Part shown: piece after piece, positions 970 through 28,063 of the stretch
Position numbering within the stretch: position 1 is the stretch's first letter
Layout: every line of letters starts with the position of its first letter
Source: a virus
IMG/VR virus record: IMGVR_UViG_3300049783_000574
Coordinates: 1 to 32,424 of that record
Length of the DNA stretch: 32,424 nt
Strand: one strand, 5' to 3'
Position numbers and translations under genes: made by a program
Notes under the pieces: model-generated
Told to the model about the DNA's origin: nothing
What the model saw: the letters and a program-made list of their open reading frames with translations, nothing else
Databases searched by the model: none

Positions 970-1419
970 TTACGCTTTGCGAACTGTAACAAGAGCGGCA
1001 CCGCCGGACGTGTTAACAATTTCATCTGAATAAAAAAGGATTTGTTCTGTTCCATCAGTCGCGGCAATTGCAAGCTGACCAGAGCCGTTTGACGCTAATC
1101 CTACGCCTTTGCTCGTGATGTTCTGAGTGATTGCAACAACTGCATTGACAAACTCACCAGATCGCACAGCAATTGCTTCTGCAGTATCACCGATGGTATA
1201 AGCAGTAGTAATAATGCCGCCTTCAGATTCGGGAATTTCTTTAGCAATTAAACATTCACTATTGAACACAGTTGCAGCAAGAGCAGAAGTAGCCAATCCT
1301 GATGCAGACTGAACTAACAATTCACCAGGTGTAAAGGCATCTACTGCCAAGCCTTCCACGATTAACGGGCCGTTAAGACCGCTATTAATTGGACCTAAAT
1401 AGATCTTACGTTTAGCCAT
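970..1419 (-). CDS. Head decoration / structural cement-like protein
   Basis: This 149-residue protein is rich in Ala, Gly, Val, Thr and Ser, has no cysteine cluster or membrane segment, and looks all-beta (AYTIGDTAEAIAVRSGEFVN). It resembles capsid decoration or cement proteins, which are coded between the protease/scaffold and the capsid gene. Its ATG overlaps the last base of the upstream stop (TAATG at 1419), so it is translationally coupled to the protease gene, and it is followed 11 bases later by the capsid gene. Function is inferred from composition and position. A small head-completion protein is an alternative. Confidence 0.55.
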   Translation of the reverse strand: MAKRKIYLGPINSGLNGPLIVEGLAVDAFTPGELLVQSASGLATSALAATVFNSECLIAKEIPESEGGIITTAYTIGDTAEAIAVRSGEFVNAVVAITQNITSKGVGLASNGSGQLAIAATDGTEQILFYSDEIVNTSGGAALVTVRKA

Positions 1420-2627
1420 TATTTAGCTCCCGTATTTTGAAAGCTATCTGAATAATCATCAGTTGGCTCTTGTGATTGGCGGAATGCGCCGTTCAATGCA
1501 AAAGTTTGACCGGTAACTTTATTGTGTAAAGTTTGAAGCTCTTCAACTTCTAAGCCTTTAAGCGCGTTAACACTTAAACCAGTATCTAAATCTTTCAATT
1601 CGTCAACTAGTGTAGTTTTAACAGATTCGTCTTTTGCGTTAAATTTAGTTTCAAGGTCAGTGAACTTTTCAGTCAGTGCTTGAATAGCGTTAAGTATTTC
1701 AGAGTTCTGCGCGACGTCCTTCGACTTCGGCGCGTCATCCTTCTTACCCATCTTTTCAAATGCATTGCTTATATCATCATCGCTCATACCATCTTTGTAT
1801 GAGCCATTATCTTTAAGCGCTTGCATCTTTTTCTTGATGTCGTCAGGCATCGCGTTTTCCTCGTTTTGTTGGGGTTTGTTTTCTGTGTTTCCGGCTAACT
1901 TACTCATGCCTAATAGCGCAAGTAGTTTGGCCAAAAGGCTGTTAAATTCGTCTGGGGTTTCGGTCTTATCGTCTGCGCCTACATCTTCGACTTTGTAAAT
2001 TGTGTCTGGGATTGAATCGGGCATGTAATCAGCAAGGTTAACTATTACGTTATCGTTTGACTCTTTATTAAATCGCATGAATGTTGACTGCCCACCAGCA
2101 GGTGGCTCGCTTGAGTCGAGCATAGCCAAGTGGTTATACACTTGCTTAGTTGCAGACCCTTCATAGTCAACACCTTTAGCATTCTTGCCTACAGTCGGCT
2201 CAATCTCTGCATATAAGCCAGTGCTTACACCGATGTCTTGCTGATTAGCTAAACTATCGTAAAAGTTTGAGTCTTGCTTTTTGTCTTGCGCTCGAAGTAT
2301 GTCTTTGTCAATAGAAATATTAACTTTCCATGTGCCACTATCAGCGTATACAGTTTCAATATGACCACCGCTGTAAAATTTCTGCAATGATTCACCGGCA
2401 TAGGCATCAGCGCCTGACCCGTTTAATGTGGTTGGATGAGATAAGGTTACAACACGGTCACGTATAGAAGGCATACCGAGTTTATTATTTTCAGCACTGT
2501 AATGTATGCCATTCATGACAGCATCATCAACAGTGACTGGGACGCCTTCGATATTAAAGTGGGTGTCAGTCTCTTTTATCTGCGTTTTTGATATGTTTGC
2601 AAATAATGAAATATGAGCTTGTGGCAT
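1419..2627 (-). CDS. DUF2213-type prohead protease with C-terminal scaffold region
   Basis: The 402-residue product has an N-terminal domain of about 170 residues matching the DUF2213 style: FNIEGVPVTVDDAVMNGIHY, then VVTLSHP (His near residue 64) and DIGVSTGLYAE. This family occupies the place of the head-maturation protease in many phages. After about residue 215 the protein becomes acidic and low in complexity (VEDVGADDKTETPDEF, Asn/Gln/Asp/Lys-rich), followed by a predicted coiled coil around 305-345, as expected for a fused internal scaffold. It is the first gene of the decoration/capsid unit and is read from a consensus promoter at 2660-2688. Catalytic residues are not assigned; the peptidase role is inferred from family and order. 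Confidence 0.72.
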   Translation of the reverse strand: MPQAHISLFANISKTQIKETDTHFNIEGVPVTVDDAVMNGIHYSAENNKLGMPSIRDRVVTLSHPTTLNGSGADAYAGESLQKFYSGGHIETVYADSGTWKVNISIDKDILRAQDKKQDSNFYDSLANQQDIGVSTGLYAEIEPTVGKNAKGVDYEGSATKQVYNHLAMLDSSEPPAGGQSTFMRFNKESNDNVIVNLADYMPDSIPDTIYKVEDVGADDKTETPDEFNSLLAKLLALLGMSKLAGNTENKPQQNEENAMPDDIKKKMQALKDNGSYKDGMSDDDISNAFEKMGKKDDAPKSKDVAQNSEILNAIQALTEKFTDLETKFNAKDESVKTTLVDELKDLDTGLSVNALKGLEVEELQTLHNKVTGQTFALNGAFRQSQEPTDDYSDSFQNTGAK

Positions 2628-2659: not shown

Positions 2660-2688
2660 ATTATATTTTAATTGGCCTAAGTAGTCAA
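2660..2688 (-). promoter_or_regulatory. Promoter for the protease-decoration-capsid unit
   Basis: On the minus strand TTGACT (2683-2688) and a perfect TATAAT (2660-2665) are separated by exactly 17 bases. The start codon of the protease gene lies 33 bases beyond the -10 box. It is one of the best sigma70-like matches in the window and separates capsid-gene transcription from the head genes upstream, which the rightward island isolates. Confidence 0.75.
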
Positions 2689-2696
2689 ACAAAGGC

Positions 2697-2725
2697 TTGC
2701 AATAGTAAATATACTGGTCTAGGAT
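2697..2725 (+). promoter_or_regulatory. Promoter for the rightward small-gene island
   Basis: TTGCAA (2697-2702) and TAGGAT (2720-2725) are 17 bases apart, upstream of the first island gene at 2774. It is back to back with the leftward promoter at 2660-2688. The -10 match is moderate. Confidence 0.5.
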
Positions 2726-2773
2726 GACATAAAACAGCTAAAACAACTAAAAGATACAAACAACGGAGAGTAA

Positions 2774-3010
2774 GTGAATAAGTCACTCAATAAATACAAA
2801 AAGTCTAAGTGGATTAAAATCAGACTTTCAAAGCGGCATAGGTCCGACATTACACTTAGAGCAATGTCGGCTACATTTACAACCGCTCAAAGCATGTCTT
2901 TAATTGGATCTATAAATGAGTGCATGTCAATTGACAAAGTAGGTAAAGCTATTGCTATATGTGATGTAATTCTTGATAACTTAAAAGCAATGCAAATAAA
3001 CGGGGAGTAA
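2774..3010 (+). CDS. Small basic protein, first gene of rightward island
   Basis: A 78-residue protein starting with GTG behind a GGAG sequence. The N-terminus is strongly basic (KKSKWIKIRLSKRHR), followed by an amphipathic second half. I recognise no family. Its first 23 residues resemble those of the 77-residue protein at 3200 (MNKSLNKYKKSKW against MNKSFSKYKKASW), at the DNA level too, so the two are probably partial paralogues. The last codons (NGE, AACGGGGAG) also provide the Shine-Dalgarno of the next gene. It lies between two leftward head genes but reads the opposite way, a moron-like position. Confidence 0.6.
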   Translation: MNKSLNKYKKSKWIKIRLSKRHRSDITLRAMSATFTTAQSMSLIGSINECMSIDKVGKAIAICDVILDNLKAMQINGE

Positions 3011-3013
3011 ATA

Positions 3014-3199
3014 ATGGGTGATGTTGACAAAATGATTGGCCTTATTATTATTATTATAATGATAAGCTCAGCTATTAAATGTGTTTTTACATTTATTGCA
3101 TTTGGATTTGAAATAAACTGGGACTTTAAGAGCTTATATGACTGCACAGTTACCTCCGCAAGCTTTTTAGAATGCTACTTAACATTAAGCGGAGATTAA
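3014..3199 (+). CDS. Small single-pass membrane protein
   Basis: A 61-residue product with a very hydrophobic stretch at about residues 8-20 (IGLIIIIIMISS) continuing through a second apolar region to about 32, then a soluble tail with two cysteines. It starts at ATG after the preceding gene's GGGGAG and ends directly before the ATG at 3200. No family recognised. Membrane location is the only supported property. It belongs to the rightward island. Confidence 0.55.
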   Translation: MGDVDKMIGLIIIIIMISSAIKCVFTFIAFGFEINWDFKSLYDCTVTSASFLECYLTLSGD

Positions 3200-3433
3200 A
3201 TGAATAAGTCATTTAGCAAGTATAAGAAAGCAAGTTGGTGGTCTATTGCACTTTCTGAGCCACATAAGGAACGTGATTTTAAAAAAAGAATACTTAAAGT
3301 TCAGTTTTCTGACCCTGATGTTGGTGCAGACTGGTTGCTTGAAGTGGGCAGACACCAAGGGATAAAATGGAACAAGACAATGCTTAATAATTTAGATTTT
3401 ATACAAAAAATATTAAAAGAAATGGGAGAATGA
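3200..3433 (+). CDS. Small protein, N-terminal paralogue of the gene at 2774
   Basis: This 77-residue protein begins with ATG directly after the stop of the membrane protein and uses GGAG in that gene's last codons. The first 23 residues match the 2774 product (MNKSxxKYKKxxW), while the rest diverges (Trp-rich, mixed charge, ending ILKEMGE). The ending overlaps the ribosome site of the next gene. No known domain recognised. Confidence 0.6.
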   Translation: MNKSFSKYKKASWWSIALSEPHKERDFKKRILKVQFSDPDVGADWLLEVGRHQGIKWNKTMLNNLDFIQKILKEMGE

Positions 3434-3434
3434 T

Positions 3435-3590
3435 TTGATTTACTACTTATTAGCATGTGCAATTGGGTTTTTAATTAATGATGTCAAAGGTATAGCCATT
3501 GCTATATTAATTATGGGCTGCATTGATTTGGTTAAATGGGCAATCAATGGGTTGATGGAGATAAATAAATCGAAAGGTAACGGGGAATAA
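3435..3590 (+). CDS. Small two-segment membrane protein, TTG start
   Basis: A 51-codon frame starts at TTG 3435, four bases after GGGAGAATGA, and ends at TAA 3590. The product has apolar stretches at about residues 3-14 and 19-33 (IAIAILIMGCIDL) and a Lys-rich C-terminus ending in NGE, whose codons AACGGGGAA supply the ribosome site for the ATG at 3592. Coding is supported by the lack of any other gene, good spacing and tight packing, but the TTG start is a choice without strong evidence. Confidence 0.5.
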   Translation: MIYYLLACAIGFLINDVKGIAIAILIMGCIDLVKWAINGLMEINKSKGNGE

Positions 3591-3591
3591 T

Positions 3592-3867
3592 ATGAATGAA
3601 ATGCACAAGTTAGTTTTACCTGATTGGACTAAAAACCTCCCAGACAAAACAAGAATTACATCCAAAGAAATAAGTACGTTTTTTGGATATAAATCACCAG
3701 CTCATGTAAGCAAAATAGTTGCTAGGCATAAATTCCCAAAATGTGACGACTCATGCCCAGCGTTAAGATTTTCACCAAGATCAAGAGGTTCGAAAAGACC
3801 TGACAATTATTGGTTTCTAGGAACGCTTAGAGATTACGAAATTAAACAGAATAAGGAAAACAAATAA
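3592..3867 (+). CDS. Putative DNA-binding protein (excisionase/AlpA-like helix-turn-helix)
   Basis: A 91-residue basic protein. Residues about 22-50 (RITSKEISTFFGYKSPAHVSKI) look like a winged helix-turn-helix, with a specificity helix after FFGY and a following basic segment (PRSRGSKRPDN) of the kind seen in MerR/AlpA-type phage regulators. The end (YWFLGTLRDYEI) resembles a dimerisation strand/helix. It could regulate this island. The stop overlaps the next ATG (TAATG). The call rests on pattern recognition only. Confidence 0.5.
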   Translation: MNEMHKLVLPDWTKNLPDKTRITSKEISTFFGYKSPAHVSKIVARHKFPKCDDSCPALRFSPRSRGSKRPDNYWFLGTLRDYEIKQNKENK

Positions 3868-4031
3868 TGTACCCCACAACACGCAAGATAATAGACAAAG
3901 GCTATAACCTCAAAGAGTTCTGCAAAAAGATAGGCTGGTCACTAGGCTGGTATCGTACACACTGCAAGCAAGAAGGCACTAAGCAGAAAGAGATGATTCA
4001 GGACTTTATTAACGAGCTGGAGAGCAAGTGA
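3867..4031 (+). CDS. Very small HTH-like protein
   Basis: A 54-residue product coupled to the previous gene by TAATG and to the next by TGATG. The sequence KGYNLKEFCKKIGWSLGWYR reads like a short helix-turn-helix (helix, glycine turn, helix) followed by a helical C-terminus. It is rich in Lys and has two Cys. It could be a small DNA-binding partner of the protein at 3592. No family name assigned. Confidence 0.5.
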   Translation: MYPTTRKIIDKGYNLKEFCKKIGWSLGWYRTHCKQEGTKQKEMIQDFINELESK

Positions 4032-4198
4032 TGAGTGATTTATTTATGTTATACGTTGGGTTTAGTTATATTTATATGTTTGGCTTTCTTTTCGATTACT
4101 ACAACGGCAAGAAAAAAGTCAGTGGACATGTCGCGTCAGTGATTTTATTTTTATTGGCCCCATTAACAATGCCTTTCTTAATGGGTGTAAATCAATGA
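4031..4198 (+). CDS. Small membrane protein, two predicted helices
   Basis: A 55-residue product with hydrophobic segments at about 4-22 and 35-52 joined by a polar Asn/Lys loop (YYNGKKKVSGH). ATG 4031 overlaps the preceding stop, and its own TGA overlaps the ATG at 4195 (ATGA), so the whole run is coupled. No family recognised. It may act in the inner membrane; this is inference. Confidence 0.5.
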   Translation: MSDLFMLYVGFSYIYMFGFLFDYYNGKKKVSGHVASVILFLLAPLTMPFLMGVNQ

Positions 4199-4491
4199 AT
4201 AAGTTTAGCTTTTTAGCACTAACCGCCCTATTATCATTTGGTTCATTAGCTAGCGAAGATAACGGTTATTGCAAGGGCATGTCAAAAGTTGCTGGTCAAA
4301 TAATGGAGTTTAGACAGCAAAGTGTGGATATGGCAGAGCTTTACGAATTGCTAAAGAATAGCAAAGGCAGCCTTATTATTTTAAAAATGGCTTATGACGT
4401 ACCTTTGTATTCTACTGATGAATATAAGTTGCGTGAAATAGCTAAATTTAAGAATGAGATATTTATGATATGTATTAGTAAAGAAGACTAA
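4195..4491 (+). CDS. Small secreted (periplasmic) protein
   Basis: A 98-residue protein with a clear signal peptide: MNK, a hydrophobic core (FSFLALTALLSFGSL) and a likely AxA-type cleavage near residue 20 (SLAS-ED). The mature part is about 78 residues with two cysteines (YCKGM and MICISKED), which could form a disulfide. A phage-coded periplasmic protein in a moron position suggests modification of the infected cell envelope, for example exclusion of other phages. That role is inferred. Confidence 0.65.
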   Translation: MNKFSFLALTALLSFGSLASEDNGYCKGMSKVAGQIMEFRQQSVDMAELYELLKNSKGSLIILKMAYDVPLYSTDEYKLREIAKFKNEIFMICISKED

Positions 4492-4521
4492 ACCTGCGCC
4501 CAAACTTAATGGAGATAAGAA

Positions 4522-4791
4522 ATGAAAAATTATTTATTATTTGTTACCTACAGATATTATCCCAATGGTGGTGTTAATGATTTTATTAATGACTATGATT
4601 TTATTAGTGATGCAATACAATCTTTTGAAATGATATGGCCGTGTATTGATAATGGTGATGGTGATGATGTGTCTTGCCATGTAGTTCGTCATATTGATAT
4701 GGTTGTAATGGGCGATTTCTTTGTTGATTCTGGCGAAGTTAAGGAGAAACCTAGACCTGTGCCCATCCTTTTTTCTGCTCTAACATTTTAG
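4522..4791 (+). CDS. Hypothetical acidic protein, last gene of rightward island
   Basis: An 89-residue product preceded by GGAG (TAATGGAGATAAGAA). It is rich in Asp and aromatic residues (YDFISDAIQSFEMIWPCIDNGDGDD). The start resembles small proteins with an N-terminal beta strand (YLLFVTYRYYPNGG) that may respond to ligands, but I cannot name it. Its last 41 bases overlap the end of the leftward head gene on the opposite strand, so the two transcription units collide here and no terminator lies between them. Confidence 0.55.
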   Translation: MKNYLLFVTYRYYPNGGVNDFINDYDFISDAIQSFEMIWPCIDNGDGDDVSCHVVRHIDMVVMGDFFVDSGEVKEKPRPVPILFSALTF

Positions 4792-5668
4792 CAATCGAAC
4801 CACCGTCAAAAGGCTTGCCGTCTTTACTGTACACAACCTCACTTGTTGAGCAATAACAGTTTATGCGGTTTGACCCTTCAGCCCACCAATCGTTTTGGTC
4901 TTGTATTGTGTGAACTGTTCCATGCCTTGCTGCATGTTTAACACGAGTTGTAGGCAATAGGCTGGACCTATGTATCATACGTACATCAATGCCTAGCCTA
5001 GTCTTTGTGTCGTCTGCTTGCTCTGCCCTAGCTACAGTATAGGCTCTATTTATCTCAGTACGTGCAATCCTTGACGCTCGGCTATCTGCAACATCAAAAC
5101 GCTTGGCAATTAATCGCTGTGCAACTCTTGGTGAATCGCCATCTGTTACGACTTGAGACAATGCCCGGGCTAAATCCGTCGCTGTATCACCTGAGAAACC
5201 TTTCATTTCGTTAAACGTTCGCCCAAAAACTAATGCAACACGCCTTTCATAGATGCCCGATTGAAATATTCTTTCAACGTCAAGTTGTGATATGTCTGCA
5301 GTAGAATATCCAGCCGGACCCGCTAGCATTACAGTTCTTATGATTGAATCTTCTGTACCCATTCCATATGCTGCACTCATAAACGGGTTCATGAAGAACC
5401 TGGCTGGCCGTCCGTCTGATTGCGTTTCAAACCATTTGTTGATTATTTCACGTATGCGAATATCAACTGTCTGTACACGTAAGTCATCTAGCTCATATAT
5501 GTATGTAGTGCGGTTGGCTACTAGCTTTGAGGGGAGGCTTTTAACCAGTGCTTGAACCTCACGCTTAGCGCCTTTAAGTTTGCGCCTGATGTTTGCCATT
5601 GCTCGCCGTCTTGTTCCCGCCTGCTTAGTTGGGTCAAGTTCTATGCGAGTGAGTTTCTTGTTTTCCAT
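4751..5668 (-). CDS. Minor head protein, SPP1 gp7 / Mu gpF family
   Basis: A 305-residue product with the C-terminal signature of phage head-morphogenesis proteins: RTEINRAY (203-210), HAARHG (245-250) and the Cys/Asn segment NRINCYCSTSEV (268-279). The N-terminus is basic and helical. Members bind the portal and are packaged in small numbers in the head. It lies downstream of the portal gene as expected, but the rightward gene 5779-6147 sits between them. Start ATG 5668 is preceded by TGGAG. A TATAAT-like hexamer lies close upstream on the same strand without a good -35 box. Confidence 0.8.
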   Translation of the reverse strand: MENKKLTRIELDPTKQAGTRRRAMANIRRKLKGAKREVQALVKSLPSKLVANRTTYIYELDDLRVQTVDIRIREIINKWFETQSDGRPARFFMNPFMSAAYGMGTEDSIIRTVMLAGPAGYSTADISQLDVERIFQSGIYERRVALVFGRTFNEMKGFSGDTATDLARALSQVVTDGDSPRVAQRLIAKRFDVADSRASRIARTEINRAYTVARAEQADDTKTRLGIDVRMIHRSSLLPTTRVKHAARHGTVHTIQDQNDWWAEGSNRINCYCSTSEVVYSKDGKPFDGGSIAKMLEQKKGWAQV

Positions 5669-5716: not shown

Positions 5717-5745
5717 TTGACACTGTAGTCTATACTTACTACTAT
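5717..5745 (+). promoter_or_regulatory. Strong promoter with shared ACATYAGTGTTGACA element
   Basis: TTGACA (5717-5722) and TACTAT (5740-5745) are 17 bases apart; a TATACT lies 3 bases later. The -35 box is embedded in ACATCAGTGTTGACA (5708-5722), which recurs at two other promoters (24899-24913 plus strand, 14712-14726 minus strand). It reads into the lone rightward gene at 5779. Confidence 0.75.
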
Positions 5746-5778: not shown

Positions 5779-6147
5779 ATGAAACAGTTAATAATAAAAA
5801 GAATCATTAAGTCATACAAGTTAAGTGATTTAGTCATTAAAGAACTTCCAATTTTTAAAAACATTACTGTTGTCGAATCAACATCACTTAGAATCGACGG
5901 CAGGCAAAGAAGATTTTTAACCCCAGAAGCCATTCAGCTAGCCGAATTTAATCTAGAGCCAGTTAAGTTTTGCATGAGCGCAGTAATTAGATCCAAACAA
6001 TACTCCGAGCTTTTTAATATAAACCCTTCAATGACTGTAACTTTACAAGGGCCAGGTTTTGAAATTGAGGTGTTTATAGACTCGTTATCTTCTGCTGGCG
6101 AATACGAAGGTATAACATGTGTTGACATGTGTTTCACTCCTGTATAG
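5779..6147 (+). CDS. Moron-like hypothetical protein
   Basis: A 122-residue protein preceded by GAGGATAAATA. The N-terminal 20 residues are basic (KQLIIKRIIKSYK); the rest is mixed alpha/beta with a Ser/Gly-rich section near the C-terminus. No family recognised. It stands alone, reading right between the leftward portal and minor-head genes, with its own consensus promoter and 29 bases to the portal stop on the other strand. Independent promoter and opposite orientation are classic moron features, so expression may differ from the late genes. Candidate roles (anti-defence, exclusion) are speculation. Confidence 0.6.
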   Translation: MKQLIIKRIIKSYKLSDLVIKELPIFKNITVVESTSLRIDGRQRRFLTPEAIQLAEFNLEPVKFCMSAVIRSKQYSELFNINPSMTVTLQGPGFEIEVFIDSLSSAGEYEGITCVDMCFTPV

Positions 6148-18374: not shown

Positions 18375-18590
18375 TTAATTTAATTCGACTATCTTGCAAA
18401 CGCTGCCTTCAATAGCTATGTAACGGTATATCTGGCCGTCAACTTTATATCTGTAATAATTGTTCTGTATTGCAAACCCAGCATCACCAACTGCTATTAA
18501 AACGTCATCACAGTATAGTGATTCTTTGAAAGGCTTATCATGCAAGCATCCGGTTAAGGTTATTGCTGCTAGAATTATTATTGATTTCAT
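18375..18590 (-). CDS. Small lipoprotein
   Basis: A 71-residue product with a signal sequence MKSIIILAAITLTGC and a lipobox LTGC (residues 12-15), so it is likely acylated at Cys15 and anchored in the membrane. The mature 57 residues are charged with two cysteines (LYCDD and SVCKI). Phage lipoproteins of this size often block receptors or DNA entry of other phages (superinfection exclusion); here that is inferred only. ATG overlaps the upstream stop. Confidence 0.65.
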   Translation of the reverse strand: MKSIIILAAITLTGCLHDKPFKESLYCDDVLIAVGDAGFAIQNNYYRYKVDGQIYRYIAIEGSVCKIVELN

Positions 18591-19123
18591 GGCTTAAATC
18601 CTATTCTAAAATCATGGTAAACATCACGTATTGGCATTTGCAAACCTTGCGGTGTAAATATGTAAACGCACACTGGAAATTTCGGGCCTTGCTTCTTGCC
18701 TGCTTTATCCAAAAACTCTGATCCATCTGGACGTAAAAAGTTAAGCCTAAACGGCATGTGGATCACGGTATCGGCGTGTTTGCGGGCTAGCCTTGTATAG
18801 CCTACCTCTGTCTTGTCGGGTATTAACATTAGTGTTGTGTTGCCGCCCATGGTTGACTCCCAACTAGACTTATCAATCCAAGGTTTTATATTGGAGTAAG
18901 GCGGGTTGCAGTAATTAATACGCCCCCAGTCACAAAAACTATCAAGCCCATTAATACCCTCGTCAATAGAGTAATAGTCTTGAGCCTTGGCTGTGTTTTT
19001 AGAGGAGCAGACATCAAACCCGATTATCAAATTGGTAAAGTCTTCAAGAGACTTAATAAACCACCATGGCGTTTGTGCGCAATCCTGTTCTGACTCTGGG
19101 GTTGTTGAATTATTAAGATTCAT
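18587..19123 (-). CDS. DNA N6-adenine methyltransferase (Dam-like, phage type)
   Basis: A 178-residue protein of the phage N6-adenine methylase family. It has TPWW (18-21), FDVCSS near 36-41 (binding region for S-adenosylmethionine, DVCAS type), and the catalytic NPPY at 73-76 in INYCNPPYSNIKPW. The end FPVCVYIF fits the conserved strand. It methylates adenine in phage DNA, perhaps protecting it from host restriction. Coupled at both ends by four-base overlaps. Confidence 0.85.
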   Translation of the reverse strand: MNLNNSTTPESEQDCAQTPWWFIKSLEDFTNLIIGFDVCSSKNTAKAQDYYSIDEGINGLDSFCDWGRINYCNPPYSNIKPWIDKSSWESTMGGNTTLMLIPDKTEVGYTRLARKHADTVIHMPFRLNFLRPDGSEFLDKAGKKQGPKFPVCVYIFTPQGLQMPIRDVYHDFRIGFKP

Positions 19124-20037: not shown

Positions 20038-20230
20038 TTGGTATCACCTTAAAGCTGTGTGTTGTGCCTCTCGTCTCTCTGGCATAAACTACACAATCTG
20101 TAAATGTGCTTACATAGCAGTATTGATTTTCGCCGGATATAAACCCAAGCCACATGACATCATCTACTCTGTCCATTGCTTCTTTTAAGCTTAATTCTGA
20201 TGTGTTTTCTATAATTATTTTACTTTTCAT
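20027..20230 (-). CDS. Hypothetical small protein
   Basis: A 67-residue product with alternating strands and a helix (SELSLKEAMDRVDDVMWLGF). ATG overlaps the upstream stop (ATGA). No family recognised. Confidence 0.5.
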   Translation of the reverse strand: MKSKIIIENTSELSLKEAMDRVDDVMWLGFISGENQYCYVSTFTDCVVYARETRGTTHSFKVIPNDK

Positions 20231-20721
20231 GATTGACCATCCGCTTTTTGCTTTTCTTTGAAAAATTCAGAGTCCCTTGGTATTAAGAATTTAACGCCCT
20301 TATCAACCATCCATTGTTCATGCTTTAGACATGCCATAAACCGTTGCCCTTTGTCTGCAACGTTATCACCGGATTTAGACCATGAGAGTCGTTCACCTTC
20401 TTTATTATTGCCAAGATGCACCGACGTAAACAACTCGTGAGCGTCTTTCTCGTTAAAAGGCCGTTTACCGTACCATTCGCCGCTTGCCTTGGTCATTAAG
20501 GGCATAACAGAGCCGTTAGCAGCCATAAAATTAGCTGTTGAAGTCATCCAAGACCGCCACAACCTAGACATTCCCCACTTACCTATGCTGCCGTCAAACT
20601 CTTCAATCGTAACTAAAACAGGTTTATTGCTAGCATTCATAATATCGACAATGGTTGCCCATAATCGCTTGCCATCTTCGCCGCTGGTGGCTCTGTTGAT
20701 TAGTGTTGTTTGCTTATCCAT
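20227..20721 (-). CDS. NinB-like recombination protein (tentative)
   Basis: A 164-residue protein. N-terminal KRLWATIVDIMNASNKPVLVTIEEFDGS and the Trp-rich middle (WGMSRLWRSWMTST) recall NinB-type recombination mediators, which follow the same KPxxVTIxE beginning and then tryptophan-rich helices. The C-terminal half is different (ERLSWSKSGDNVADKGQRF), so identity is weak. It is next to the HNH-like gene as in the lambda nin region. TAATG coupling upstream. Confidence 0.35.
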   Translation of the reverse strand: MDKQTTLINRATSGEDGKRLWATIVDIMNASNKPVLVTIEEFDGSIGKWGMSRLWRSWMTSTANFMAANGSVMPLMTKASGEWYGKRPFNEKDAHELFTSVHLGNNKEGERLSWSKSGDNVADKGQRFMACLKHEQWMVDKGVKFLIPRDSEFFKEKQKADGQS

Positions 20722-22503: not shown

Positions 22504-23037
22504 ATGAGTGAACAACAACCAAAAACGCATTACAGGAAAGTATTTAAAAGTGACCATTTAGGGCAAGCAGACCTTGAAGACTTTAAAGAAGATGGCAGCA
22601 ATCTAATTTTTACTGTTGCATACGTTAACCAGGAAATAGGCGCAAAAGTAGCAGGCAAGAAAATAGATGCAAACATAGCGTACTTTGCTGAACGTATTAA
22701 GCCGCTTGTATTGAACGCCACCAACTCCGCAACGATGAAAAAGATAACAGGTAGTGCATTCATCGAAGATTGGCAAAACGTTGTTATACAGCTATACATT
22801 GAGCCTAACGTCAAGATGAAAGGTGAAACTGTAGGCGGTGTAAGAATTAGCCATTTAAAGCCAAAGGTAGCTAAACCCCAAGTTACTAAAGATACAGTTC
22901 AGATGTGGGATAATGCCAAGAAAGCATATAAGCAAGACGGTAATTTTATACGTGTTTTTAAACGTGCCGATATTACTCCAGAAAATCAAAAGCTAATGCT
23001 GGATGAAATAAAATTAGAAGGTGCTGCCAGTGTTTAA
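22504..23037 (+). CDS. Uncharacterised phage recombination-module protein
   Basis: A 177-residue protein from ATG 22504 (MSEQQPKTHYRKVFKSDHLG); a GTG three codons earlier is in the overlap with the previous gene and less likely. The sequence RKVFKSDHLGQADLEDF, ANIAYFAERIKPLVLNATNS and NVKMKGETVGGVRI belongs to a protein family I recall as common before exonuclease or SSB genes in phages, with no defined function. It occupies the place of a recT/bet/erf annealing protein, so an accessory or annealing role is plausible but unproven. It overlaps the exonuclease by 8 bases. Confidence 0.65.
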   Translation: MSEQQPKTHYRKVFKSDHLGQADLEDFKEDGSNLIFTVAYVNQEIGAKVAGKKIDANIAYFAERIKPLVLNATNSATMKKITGSAFIEDWQNVVIQLYIEPNVKMKGETVGGVRISHLKPKVAKPQVTKDTVQMWDNAKKAYKQDGNFIRVFKRADITPENQKLMLDEIKLEGAASV

Positions 23038-23653
23038 CTTTATCGACGTTGAACAAAATAGCGATGAATGGTTCGAGCTTAGAGCAGGTCGATTGACTAG
23101 CTCTAAGCTTGGGGTTGTCATGGCCAATTATGGCAAGGCATTTGGTGAGCCTGCTAAAAAATACGCTGTTAACATAGCCATTGAGCAGATAACAGGTGAA
23201 CCAATACCTAGCACATTTACAAATGCTCATATGGAAAGGGGTCATGAGCAAGAGCCAATTGCGAGAGATTTATACGAAAACAATACATTTTCAGATGTCA
23301 GCAATGGCGGATTTTTTGATTGTGGGTTTATAGGCTGCTCACCGGATGGAATGGTCTATGATGATGGGGTTATAGAAATTAAATCTGTTATAGCATCAGT
23401 GCAGTTTGCTAATGTTAAGCGGGGGTCTGTTGACCCTGCATACTATTGGCAATGTGTAGGAAACCTTAAATTTACCGAACGCAAATGGTTAGACTTTGTA
23501 AGTTATTCTTCAGAGTTTCCGGTCGATAAGCAACTTTTTGTACACAGAATTTATTCGGCTGATTTGGCCGCTGAATTTGACAAGATAGATACGCGAGTTA
23601 ATGAGTTTAAAAAGCTTGTTGCTCAATCAAAAGAAATTATATTAAACAGTTAA
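23030..23653 (+). CDS. YqaJ-family exonuclease (lambda Exo-like)
   Basis: A 207-residue protein. I choose GTG 23030, with GAAGG 8 bases upstream, over the GTG at 23021. Motifs: SDEWFELRAGRLTSS (11-25), ERGHEQEPIAR (69-79), GCSPDGMV (102-109) and DGVIEIKS (112-119), giving the D106-E116-K118 active site of PD-(D/E)XK exonucleases. It degrades one strand of linear DNA for single-strand annealing recombination. It sits between the uncharacterised partner and SSB. Confidence 0.9.
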   Translation: MFNFIDVEQNSDEWFELRAGRLTSSKLGVVMANYGKAFGEPAKKYAVNIAIEQITGEPIPSTFTNAHMERGHEQEPIARDLYENNTFSDVSNGGFFDCGFIGCSPDGMVYDDGVIEIKSVIASVQFANVKRGSVDPAYYWQCVGNLKFTERKWLDFVSYSSEFPVDKQLFVHRIYSADLAAEFDKIDTRVNEFKKLVAQSKEIILNS

Positions 23654-23669
23654 CTATTAAGGAATAAAC

Positions 23670-23900
23670 ATGAAAGACTGGTTTAAGGCCAATGCAATAC
23701 CACAAACTGAAGTAATGTGTGGCGCTGATGTATTTGAAAATGAGATTAAAGCTGCTGGAGTTGGGTTCGCTTGTGAATGGTTTGGGCATGAACACAATGG
23801 TCATTTTGCAAAAGAAACTGTAAACACACTATGCGAACGCGCTGAAATAAATAACCCATACGCACTAAAGAACGGTGAATATGAGCTTCTTCAAGATTAA
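23670..23900 (+). CDS. Hypothetical small protein of the recombination module
   Basis: A 76-residue acidic protein with Cys17, Cys35 and Cys54 and a His-rich segment (GHEHNGHF), a possible metal site. Between exonuclease and SSB genes; leader AACTATTAAGGAATAAACATG is shared with the SSB gene. Function unknown. Confidence 0.5.
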   Translation: MKDWFKANAIPQTEVMCGADVFENEIKAAGVGFACEWFGHEHNGHFAKETVNTLCERAEINNPYALKNGEYELLQD

Positions 23901-23915
23901 CTATTAAGGAATAAC

Positions 23916-24398
23916 ATGCACATAGTACACGGCGAATTAAGAAAGGCACCCTACGTTAAATCAGGCGTTGGAAAAGATGGCCAGTCAACAATGTTTATCA
24001 TTGAGCTATCAGAAGTAATTAAAGATTACAGGTCTGGTGAAAAGTCATACACTAATTATAGTGCTATGTTATTCGCTTCTAGCCCTGCCCATGTCGATCA
24101 TTACAGCAAGACGATAGTGGAAGGCAACTTCATTGTTTTGACTGCTGAAAAGCTTAAAATTGAAGTCAGCGAATGTGGCAAATACACTAAGCTAGCAATG
24201 GATAACGCAAGGCTTGAAGGCAGCGGGTATATTGCACAACAACAAGGCCAGCAACAACAAGCACAGCCACAACAAAGGCAGGCACCACAACAAAGGCCGC
24301 AACAGAATCAAGGTTATCAGCAGCCAGCGCAACAAAACCACGCGCCGATGGCAGAACCTAATTTTGACTTTGATGATGACTCGCAGCCGCCTTTTTAA
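23916..24398 (+). CDS. Single-strand DNA-binding protein (phage type)
   Basis: A 160-residue protein. Residues 1-110 look like an OB fold (MHIVHGELRKAPYVK, NFIVLTAEKLKIEV, KYTKLAMDNARLEG). Residues about 108-145 are a Gln-rich linker (QQQGQQQQAQPQQ), and the end is DDDSQPPF, the acidic SSB tip that binds partner proteins. It protects single strands during phage replication and recombination and can recruit the nucleases coded on either side. The gene ends where the VRR-NUC gene begins. Confidence 0.85.
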   Translation: MHIVHGELRKAPYVKSGVGKDGQSTMFIIELSEVIKDYRSGEKSYTNYSAMLFASSPAHVDHYSKTIVEGNFIVLTAEKLKIEVSECGKYTKLAMDNARLEGSGYIAQQQGQQQQAQPQQRQAPQQRPQQNQGYQQPAQQNHAPMAEPNFDFDDDSQPPF

Positions 24399-26215: not shown

Positions 26216-26361
26216 GTAAATTTCATTGGGAACGAGTAGATATTAAAGAAGCTGTCAGGCTGCGTGATAAAGAGTTTTTTACCATTGGCGAGTTAGCAGA
26301 TAGATTTAGATGCAGTCGTGACCACGTTGAACGGATGCTTAAATCTGAGGGCCAATTGTGA
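26212..26361 (+). CDS. Small helix-turn-helix protein
   Basis: A 49-residue product from ATG 26212 to TGA 26361. FTIGELADRFRCSRDHVERMLKS (residues about 23-45) is a classic helix-turn-helix. It follows the Cro-type gene, with which it may act. Four-base overlap (GTGA) with the methylase gene. Confidence 0.68.
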   Translation: MSKFHWERVDIKEAVRLRDKEFFTIGELADRFRCSRDHVERMLKSEGQL

Positions 26362-26960
26362 GGGTTTTAGTCGCTTGTGAATATTCTGGGCGTGTTCGTG
26401 ATGCGTTTAGAAAGCTTGGGCATGACGCGATGAGTTGTGATTTATTGCCTAGTGATAGCCCTTTACTTGGCTGTCATTATCAGGGCGATGTATTTGACAT
26501 TATAGGTGATGGTTGGGACTTAATGATTGCTCACCCGCCTTGCACCAGATTGGCTAATAGTGGCGTTAGGTGGTTAAGAGAGCGCGATTTATGGGATGAA
26601 CTTGTTGAGGCAGCAAAGTTTTACAACAAGTTTCAGCAATGCACAATAAAGATGAAATGTATAGAAAACCCAATTATGCACAAATATGCAAAAGCTATGG
26701 TAGGTGACATTAAAAGACAAGTAGTTCAGCCTTGGTGGTTTGGTGAAAAAACATTTAAAGCGACAGGGTACGAGCTAACCGGATTACCTGATTTAGTAGC
26801 AACAAATAAATTAAACATCCCAGAGGTTGGGACTGATGAACATAAAAAATGGAGTTGGATACATAGAGCATCACCTAGCCCTGATAGATGGAAAATAAGA
26901 AGCACAACACCACAAGGCATTGCTAATGCTATGGCCGAACAATGGGGCGGTCAGCTGTGA
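26358..26960 (+). CDS. DNA cytosine methyltransferase-like protein
   Basis: A 200-residue protein starting with GTG. It has motif I-like VACEYSG (5-11), a motif IV-like HPPCTRLA (59-66) with Cys62, and ENP (103-105) as motif VI. These are C5-cytosine methylase motifs in a shortened form found in phages. No long target-recognition domain is visible, so specificity may be limited or the activity lost. Together with the adenine methylase, it suggests defence of phage DNA. Confidence 0.78.
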   Translation: MRVLVACEYSGRVRDAFRKLGHDAMSCDLLPSDSPLLGCHYQGDVFDIIGDGWDLMIAHPPCTRLANSGVRWLRERDLWDELVEAAKFYNKFQQCTIKMKCIENPIMHKYAKAMVGDIKRQVVQPWWFGEKTFKATGYELTGLPDLVATNKLNIPEVGTDEHKKWSWIHRASPSPDRWKIRSTTPQGIANAMAEQWGGQL

Positions 26961-27175: not shown

Positions 27176-27197
27176 AAAACCCCTTAATTGGGGTTTT
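27176..27197. terminator. Bidirectional terminator between early and lysis operons
   Basis: Perfect stem AAAACCCC / GGGGTTTT with TTAATT loop; U-runs follow on both strands. It ends the rightward early operon, and its minus-strand side overlaps the stop codon of the leftward holin gene. Confidence 0.85.
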
Positions 27198-27672
27198 ATT
27201 TTGCCTTCGAATCTGTGCCTTTGCCTTTATCATAACTGCGCATTGCCGCCACCCCAAGCATTGACATTATCAAACCAATTATGTCAGACACTCCTAAGTC
27301 AGGAAACACAGGTAAAATTAACGTTGATACGCCATCCCAGCCGTTTAATGTAGCTATTGATTGATACGTCCATATGTAAGTTATTACTAATGCCTTGGGT
27401 ATGTACATTAACGCTAATGACACAGCACCAACCCAACCAATCGCAGGTCTCCATCCAGCTTGAAATATATTACCGCTTTTTGCATCCGCTAGATTTATTT
27501 CTAATTGACCAGTCATTGCTTGTACGTGAGCATTTAACTTTTCAGAATCACCTTTAGCGTATAATGCTTCAAGTTTAAATAGCTCTTGCGCTTGCTCTTT
27601 TGGATCAGGCCAGATACGACTTATAAGTGATTTGCCGATATCAAGGGCTGCTGTAAGTGGGTCTAGTGCCAT
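27196..27672 (-). CDS. Holin, 3TM superfamily II
   Basis: A 158-residue protein from ATG 27672 (MALDPLTAALDIGKSLISRIWPDP, with AGGTC upstream); an upstream extension to 27723 overlaps the endolysin and is rejected. The pattern of an N-terminal amphipathic segment, EQAQELFKLEALYAKGD, SGNIFQAGWRPAIGWVGAV with membrane helix about 77-100, and a C-terminal membrane helix (DIIGLIMSMLGVAAM) matches GTA_holin_3TM. It makes holes in the inner membrane to release endolysin, whose gene overlaps immediately upstream. Confidence 0.85.
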   Translation of the reverse strand: MALDPLTAALDIGKSLISRIWPDPKEQAQELFKLEALYAKGDSEKLNAHVQAMTGQLEINLADAKSGNIFQAGWRPAIGWVGAVSLALMYIPKALVITYIWTYQSIATLNGWDGVSTLILPVFPDLGVSDIIGLIMSMLGVAAMRSYDKGKGTDSKAK

Positions 27673-27673
27673 T

Positions 27674-28063
27674 TTATCTGACCTCGAAATGAGGCATATC
27701 TTTGAAGTTAGACCAGTGACCACCCCATCGCATATTTACAGACAATCTGTTTGCGGCTTCAAGCATTGCAGCCGCTACAATAGTCAGATGACATTCATCC
27801 CAGCTAGCCTTTCCGTCTACATAAGCAAACACATCTAAGGCCAGTCCGCTTTGGTGATAGCTTTTTTTAATTGTTCCGTCTAGTTGGCTTGCCTTATCGT
27901 TAAAAAGCTTTTGTTGCTCTTCTGCGGTGCGTAATCCGCCGTGCCTTGGTATGCCAAAGTCAATAGGGGACATTGAAAGTGCAAGCCTTGCAACTTCTAT
28001 AAGCTGATAGTTAACACCACTCATTCTGTCTTCGCTATTTTTTCCAAAACTAAAGTTATTCAT
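27674..28063 (-). CDS. Endolysin, M15-type peptidase
   Basis: A 129-residue protein with the LD-carboxypeptidase (VanY/T5 endolysin-like, Peptidase_M15_4) motifs: RHGGLRTAEEQ (40-50), H70-x6-D77 in SYHQSGLALDVF and DMPHFE (122-127) with H125 as third zinc ligand. It cuts peptide cross-links of peptidoglycan. No signal peptide, so it depends on the holin. Confidence 0.92.
   Translation of the reverse strand: MNNFSFGKNSEDRMSGVNYQLIEVARLALSMSPIDFGIPRHGGLRTAEEQQKLFNDKASQLDGTIKKSYHQSGLALDVFAYVDGKASWDECHLTIVAAAMLEAANRLSVNMRWGGHWSNFKDMPHFEVR

Follow-up and report, generated by a model that had tools for sequence, protein, structure and literature searches.

A probable accessory operon of nine small genes lying antisense in the head operon of an uncultured virus

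IMG/VR record IMGVR_UViG_3300049783_000574, from an uncultured virus that is probably marine and probably infects bacteria, carries nine small rightward open reading frames (ORFs; 2774, 3014, 3200, 3435, 3592, 3867, 4031, 4195 and 4522, named by their first positions) within its leftward head operon, where they span 2774-4791. All 32,424 bases of the record were analysed and are called the window here; the window looks incomplete because its ends fall inside leftward head genes (left) and inside tail genes (right). Sequence comparison and analogy indicate that this island is probably an autoregulated, horizontally exchanged accessory (moron) operon, placed antisense in the head operon and working like acr-aca loci.

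The accessory nature of the block and its fast turnover emerge from sequence comparison of the same site in related phages. Loci with the same head protein (given handles such as L004) were gathered and the distance to the protease gene was measured. The two flanking genes are adjacent in 45 loci (<150 bp, often 4 bp) and parted by 0.25-9 kb of other genes in 27. At least 70% of the small genes, called in sister islands by a simple purpose-written script and not by a standard gene finder, are antisense to the head gene in 19 of 26 filled sites (one duplicate removed). Variation is seen even among close relatives: the head genes of L015 and L016 are 94% identical, yet only 8% and 25% of their inserts match, and empty and filled sites are paired in L042/L043 (head genes 83% identical) and L049/L071 (80%). 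The window and L004 (head nucleotide identity 82%) have 3014, 3867 and 4195 in common, while their other genes differ. The comparison with related phages that a preliminary description of this DNA had called for thus clearly shows that relatives do not carry the same genes everywhere. Among 105 products of sister islands, the few Pfam matches are all to accessory types, namely Lar restriction alleviation, HNH nuclease, YopX and helix-turn-helix (HTH) proteins.

The coding capacity of the island is equally evident, as one same-strand ORF chain covers 98% of 2774-4791, as against 43% in the best of 200 dinucleotide-preserving shuffles. Its G+C content (34.2%) is near the lowest in the window, while the flanking head genes stand at 42-45%. 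The preliminary description had reported nine short genes opposite to capsid genes, inserted between protease and minor-head genes and joined by overlapping starts and stops, all of which held: the flanks are leftward, phrog_760 and phrog_758 anchors lie on either side, and the overlaps were located as TAATG (3865-3869), TGATG (4029-4033) and ATGA (4195-4198). For genes common to the window and its close relative, the ratio of nonsynonymous to synonymous substitution rates (dN/dS) is 0.15 in 3867, 0.20 in 4195 and 0.52 in 3014 (few changes). The first two values indicate at the sequence level that 3867 and 4195 evolve under purifying selection, as real genes would. The island and its flanks comprise the following features.

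1419-2627, minus strand: flanking anchor, protease/scaffold-type gene (phrog_760)
2660-2688, minus strand: divergent headward promoter TTGACT-17-TATAAT, leading into the protease-decoration-capsid genes; 11/12 consensus matches
2697-2725, plus strand: island promoter TTGCAA-17-TAGGAT; belongs in diverged form to the ATGCAAA-box promoter family
2774-3010, plus strand: gene 1, GTG start, 78 aa, basic, MNKxxxKYxKSxW family, paralogue of gene 3
3014-3199, plus strand: gene 2, 61 aa, one membrane helix; 87% identical in L004
3200-3433, plus strand: gene 3, 77 aa, family of gene 1
3435-3590, plus strand: gene 4, TTG start, 51 aa, membrane protein by hydropathy
3592-3867, plus strand: gene 5, 91 aa, basic and HTH-like; related genes in the islands of L028, L030 and L112
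3867-4031, plus strand: gene 6, 54 aa, Cro-like HTH protein by predicted fold
4031-4198, plus strand: gene 7, 55 aa, membrane protein; a 39.6% identical relative in antisense island L116
4195-4491, plus strand: gene 8, 98 aa, predicted exported helical protein with two invariant Cys, phrog_2315 (E 2.2e-19)
4522-4791, plus strand: gene 9, 89 aa; shares 41 bp at its 3' end with the head gene
4751-5668, minus strand: flanking anchor, head morphogenesis gene (phrog_758)

The preliminary description had the region start at 2697, and this is precisely where the -35 hexamer of the island promoter lies. In the promoter family to which it belongs, a -35 is followed by an RTGCAAA box in the 17-nt spacer, a -10 and then a second ATGCAAA box, so that the operator repeats, as read from sequence, overlap the operon's own promoter; in the window they have diverged. 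Indeed, the spacer copy of the box reads TAGTAAATATACTG (2703-2716), and the -35 and -10 blocks are kept in L004 and L006 while the spacer diverges. The -10 block of the divergent promoter is also kept in these two relatives. TGCAAA occurs 11 times in 680 nt of HTH-island promoters (0.73 expected) and is missing from all 18 leaders of islands that lack this HTH family. The association between promoter and HTH gene was recovered by a scan of 2.9 million viral contigs with the promoter pattern only, which returned 17 contigs, 14 of them new: in 12 of the 14 (two being the same sequence from two assemblies) a gene for a 3867-family protein (E 6e-16 to 5e-27) follows 61-511 nt downstream in the same orientation, and the other two contigs end within 600 nt of the promoter. 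In parallel, HTH loci L130 and L131, found by protein alone in a Colwellia metagenome-assembled genome (MAG) of GTDB, carry the boxes. Among nine long records, seven have one exact operator each and the remaining two are variant-operator phages, further operator matches being at control level. A matrix built from 13 pattern-found promoters, with the window and its relatives left out, puts 2697 at the top of 64,776 window positions (6.6 bits, the runner-up scoring 3.3) and likewise gives the equivalent site the first rank in L004; a first rank at only 6.6 bits makes the window copy a recognisable but weakened family member.

As for the HTH protein itself, the AlphaFold model of 3867 has four helices (predicted local distance difference test, pLDDT, 81) and groups in structure comparison with Cro/lambda-repressor-type HTH proteins including Aca1 (best Z 5.7), a match of the predicted structure that suggests a fold class and not a family. 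The fold class and the promoter association back the earlier reading of 3867 as a putative DNA-binding regulator. The protein has no match to PDB chain sequences, nor to NCBIfam or Pfam at the curated cut-off. Its relatives in other phages again lie within antisense islands. A tblastn search with 3592 and 3867 gave no match in named phages, and the HTH family was not found among 50,697 named phage genomes. A GTDB scan with the 3867 family returned three loci, one of them a spurious frame, with WYREH as the commoner peptide form. The Colwellia MAG is the only host hint among the contigs, which are fragments, and within that MAG's order the family occurs in 1 of 395 genomes, the MAG itself, plus two marginal matches.

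Two further loci of this family deserve mention. At L135 (Colwellia MAG, G010:C101:33435), GTGTCARAT repeats with about the same spacing take the place of ATGCAAA ahead of a divergent 3867-family gene, and the specificity may have shifted; a coevolving recognition helix, considered as HTH and boxes have both diverged there, was dropped because L122 combines a divergent HTH with canonical boxes. Contig 3300037587_000547 (L128) has two 3867-family genes on the same strand, 5.6 kb apart, which suggests two islands in one phage.

Islands with this HTH stand antisense in several slots, namely scaffold/minor head, portal/terminase, capsid/connector, protease/head (L123, the slot of the window), neck/tail and tape measure/tail chaperone, where slots are named from gene order, size and a reading of the proteins except where head, protease or decoration profiles matched. 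In most cases 57-92 nt separate the -35 from the point where the divergent structural gene starts, and 60-61 nt is the usual distance from the -35 to the first island ORF. In particular, L117, a relative of the window with its island in the protease/head slot, and L124, from a different phage with its island in the neck/tail slot, are 95.5% identical over 154 nt. The shared stretch opens with the -35 hexamer and stops only where the L117 contig itself ends; upstream of it the two have nothing in common, so that the mobile unit starts at the promoter.

The gene families of the window island likewise turn up in other phages, again within antisense islands, which lie at different structural-gene junctions. 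The 2774/3200 family is found in L028, L124 and L009 (Alteromonas phage XX1924), and the XX1924 island occupies the same slot as that of the window without a 3867-family HTH. Exchange centres on gene junctions: 36% of the ends of DNA similarity between islands fall within 10 nt of gene starts, compared with 9.5% for random positions, with P = 4e-18 only indicative since the pairs are not independent. Gene 2774 is bracketed by two copies of AACGGRGAGTAA, and L004, which lacks this gene, retains one copy. Three junction sequences in the window are listed below.

2762-2773, plus strand: gene-junction repeat AACGGAGAGTAA, associated with a ribosome-binding site (RBS) and start, at the left edge of module 2774
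2999-3010, plus strand: gene-junction repeat AACGGGGAGTAA
3573-3596, plus strand: 24-nt junction AAAGGTAACGGGGAATAATATGAA, identical in L004 (E 2.6e-7), with different genes on either side

Gene junctions in islands L009, L029, L033, L037, L038 and L039 carry copies of a 39-41 nt sequence, CACTTCGCCAAACAAGGCGTTAAGGTTAGGTTGAAATGA, with 89-100% identity; in different phages these copies are fused to the ends of unrelated genes. The sequence includes CGCC-AAACAA-GGCG, which may form a hairpin. A family of small membrane proteins, IREVxCWYxKINK (IREVICWYFKINK), recurs in antisense islands that lie at different slots (L110, L111, L116, L122, L125 and L003). Elsewhere, the window encodes a RecE-like exonuclease, a single-strand binding protein and a NinB/Orf-like recombination mediator (23021-24398 and 20227-20721), a recombination set that could drive junction-level exchange. 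Gene-wise exchange had also raised the idea of an integron-like cassette array, which was set aside as no attC-like repeats or integrase were noticed, no systematic search having been made.

The closest functional model is provided by acr-aca loci, among which we do not claim that the island belongs. In phage JBD30 the order is terminase, portal, minor head, gp34, AcrF1, Aca1, protease and major head; the head profile of the window matches the JBD30 minor head protein (19.4 bits) and the protease profile matches the JBD30 protease weakly (8.4 bits), so that the AcrF1-Aca1 slot is the same as the island slot. Both loci place small accessory genes and a small HTH regulator between minor head protein and head maturation protease, and Mu-like phages have in region of genomic plasticity G a variable, low-G+C region with anti-CRISPR genes (PMC4378225). 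Unlike acr-aca, the island is antisense and has nine genes, its HTH is dissimilar in sequence to Aca1 and no known anti-CRISPR (Acr) was found. The repeats bound by Aca1 and Aca2 are inverted and overlap the -35 and -10 (PMC8434428), whereas the boxes of most island-family members are direct repeats about 22 bp apart. The second model is the P22 immI/sieA region, which is hypervariable, lies in the late operon, is expressed independently and encodes small DNA-binding regulators together with a membrane protein for exclusion (PMC8022706). The likeness lies in a variable region in a late operon with small regulators and membrane protein genes, while slot and gene set differ and no Mnt, Arc, Ant or SieA homologue was found by Pfam/NCBIfam. 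Lambdoid morons are inserted units that separate neighbouring genes, bring a promoter of their own and deviate in base composition (PMC4378225); the island differs from them as a regulated nine-gene antisense operon with an operator common to several phages. Finally, in cluster K mycobacteriophages start-associated sequences overlap the RBS before diverse small genes (PMC3203893); the island junction repeats likewise overlap the RBS, are unrelated in sequence and coincide with the ends of exchanged segments.

The preliminary description had taken the insertion for a moron with its own promoter, and this is supported by the empty and refilled sites in relatives and by the promoter sequence conserved at 2697. 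Indeed, the block is replaced or absent at the same site in close relatives, has a promoter sequence of its own and deviates in base composition. An own terminator is usual, not universal, for morons; a simple consensus scan gave no terminator-like site at the 3' end of the island in the window, and stem-loops are visible by eye at L004 and L003.

A mechanism can be outlined in which host RNA polymerase would transcribe the island from its own promoter (2697-2725) and the divergent promoter (2688-2660) would restart head-gene transcription beyond the insert. The Cro-like 3867 would bind ATGCAAA-type boxes in and just after the promoter and limit expression of the operon, as Aca proteins do. 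The other small genes would be exchangeable effectors, four of them membrane-bound or exported, acting on the host in early infection through counter-defence or envelope modification, or through superinfection exclusion if the phage lysogenises, and modules would be swapped by recombination at short conserved junctions (gene starts, promoter). We infer repression, early timing and effector roles, early expression being expected because the promoter is of the host sigma-70 type. Superinfection exclusion and inhibition of host defence, already put forward as examples in the preliminary description, would be candidate functions of the products, none of which matches a known anti-defence family; that the islands may be counter-defence operons is suggested by analogy.

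Several points weigh against an Aca-like autoregulated operon. The fold match of 3867 is generic (Z 5.7) and the protein is without sequence similarity to Aca1; its gene is sixth in the window operon and first to third in most other islands. The motif was picked by eye after the first promoters had been seen, the scan and the Colwellia loci being later tests, and a looser second pattern added two contigs (one sequence between them) without an HTH gene, which were judged chance. The window promoter has a weakened first box and no clear second box, its 6.6 bits comparing with about 30-49 for exact-match members. No effector with a recognised function was found.

Other explanations were weighed on the same data. 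A lysogeny-stage module like P22 immI, with small repressors and membrane or exported proteins that exclude superinfecting phages from lysogens, would accord with the relative of 4195 that adjoins a putative cI in Pseudoalteromonas phage H105/1. It is nonetheless unlikely: the scan of window proteins recognised neither an integrase nor a repressor (the record is incomplete), Arc-, Mnt- or SieA-like family matches were lacking, and the restriction of the HTH family to the Colwellia MAG and two marginal matches in 395 genomes speaks against common prophages. The HTH protein might otherwise mainly control the divergent headward promoter 10-40 bp away and time late capsid synthesis, with the other genes as passengers. 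We give little credence to this idea, since the slot varies (portal/terminase, tail, capsid), so that the operator stays the same and the divergent gene changes, the similarity starts sharply at the island -35 and leaves out the divergent promoter, and islands without this HTH occupy the same divergent sites. The adjacency and conservation of the divergent promoter, together with -10-like sequences that face the structural gene in the flanks of other islands, speak for it.

A lysis cassette (holin, antiholin, spanin) could account for the small membrane proteins, as Vibrio phage pYD21-A and Salmonella phage Akira both have lysis genes in this slot; it is very improbable given that the holin and endolysin of the window sit at 27196-28063 and that no island product matches a lysis family. 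Scarcely credible at all is a conserved role in capsid assembly or virion structure, for which the location within the head operon would argue: 45 related loci are without insert and close relatives carry unrelated inserts, which refutes it as a general explanation, and the recognised sister-island families (Lar, HNH, YopX, HTH) are non-structural.

Returning to the autoregulated accessory operon, a broader and tentative proposal is that antisense islands with ATGCAAA boxes and a 3867-type HTH might form an undescribed transmissible class of autoregulated counter-defence operons, hopping between structural-gene junctions of unrelated marine phages, with operator and HTH serving as bait for dozens of new anti-defence genes as aca has for anti-CRISPRs. 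No description of such islands was found in the literature searched (open-licence papers). If true, a 37-nt promoter signature and a 54-residue protein family would pinpoint accessory islands across otherwise dissimilar phages and open a guilt-by-association route to genes for anti-defence or host takeover, few of which are known from marine phages. The island would also offer a concrete case of moron regulation and exchange, in which units bounded by promoter and start-site junctions stand antisense in late operons, paired with a promoter that restarts the interrupted operon.

Family libraries recognise little among the nine products, with matches limited to phrog_2315 (4195), phrog_1411 (the start of 4522, first 33 residues, E 5e-7) and, weakly, phrog_4996 (3592), and none to known Acr families. 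As the preliminary description had noticed, 3014, 3435 and 4031 have one hydropathy-derived membrane segment each and 4195 has a signal-peptide-like start. Relatives of gene 1 occur in islands L009, L028, L006 and L124, and a scan with the MNKxxxKY family found one locus. Gene 2 has a dS of 0.17 against L004, compared with 0.7-1.0 in flanking genes, a low value that points to recent exchange. No relative of gene 4 was found. Gene 8 has relatives in L004, L030, L101 and L137, being in the last two a single antisense gene within a tail operon; its mature part gives a confident four-helix model, for which no PDB relative was listed and whose BFVD matches are uncharacterised phage proteins. The sequence at 4492-4510, after gene 8, resembles the last codons of the head gene (4755-4773), and gene 9 looks as if inserted with a short duplication of the far boundary of the island.

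A second lone rightward gene (5779-6147; 122 aa, 35% G+C) lies between the portal and head genes of the window, with a promoter-like TTGACA-17-TACTAT at 5717; L002 and L003 lack it and have their portal and head genes side by side. The window also has two DNA methyltransferase genes (18587-19123 and 26358-26960; phrog_111 and phrog_757), for which restriction evasion is a possible role. In Alteromonas phage XX1924 (L009:5398-5795), the labels DNA polymerase and tail tapemeasure protein, given to island proteins of 80 and 52 aa, are probably misannotations.

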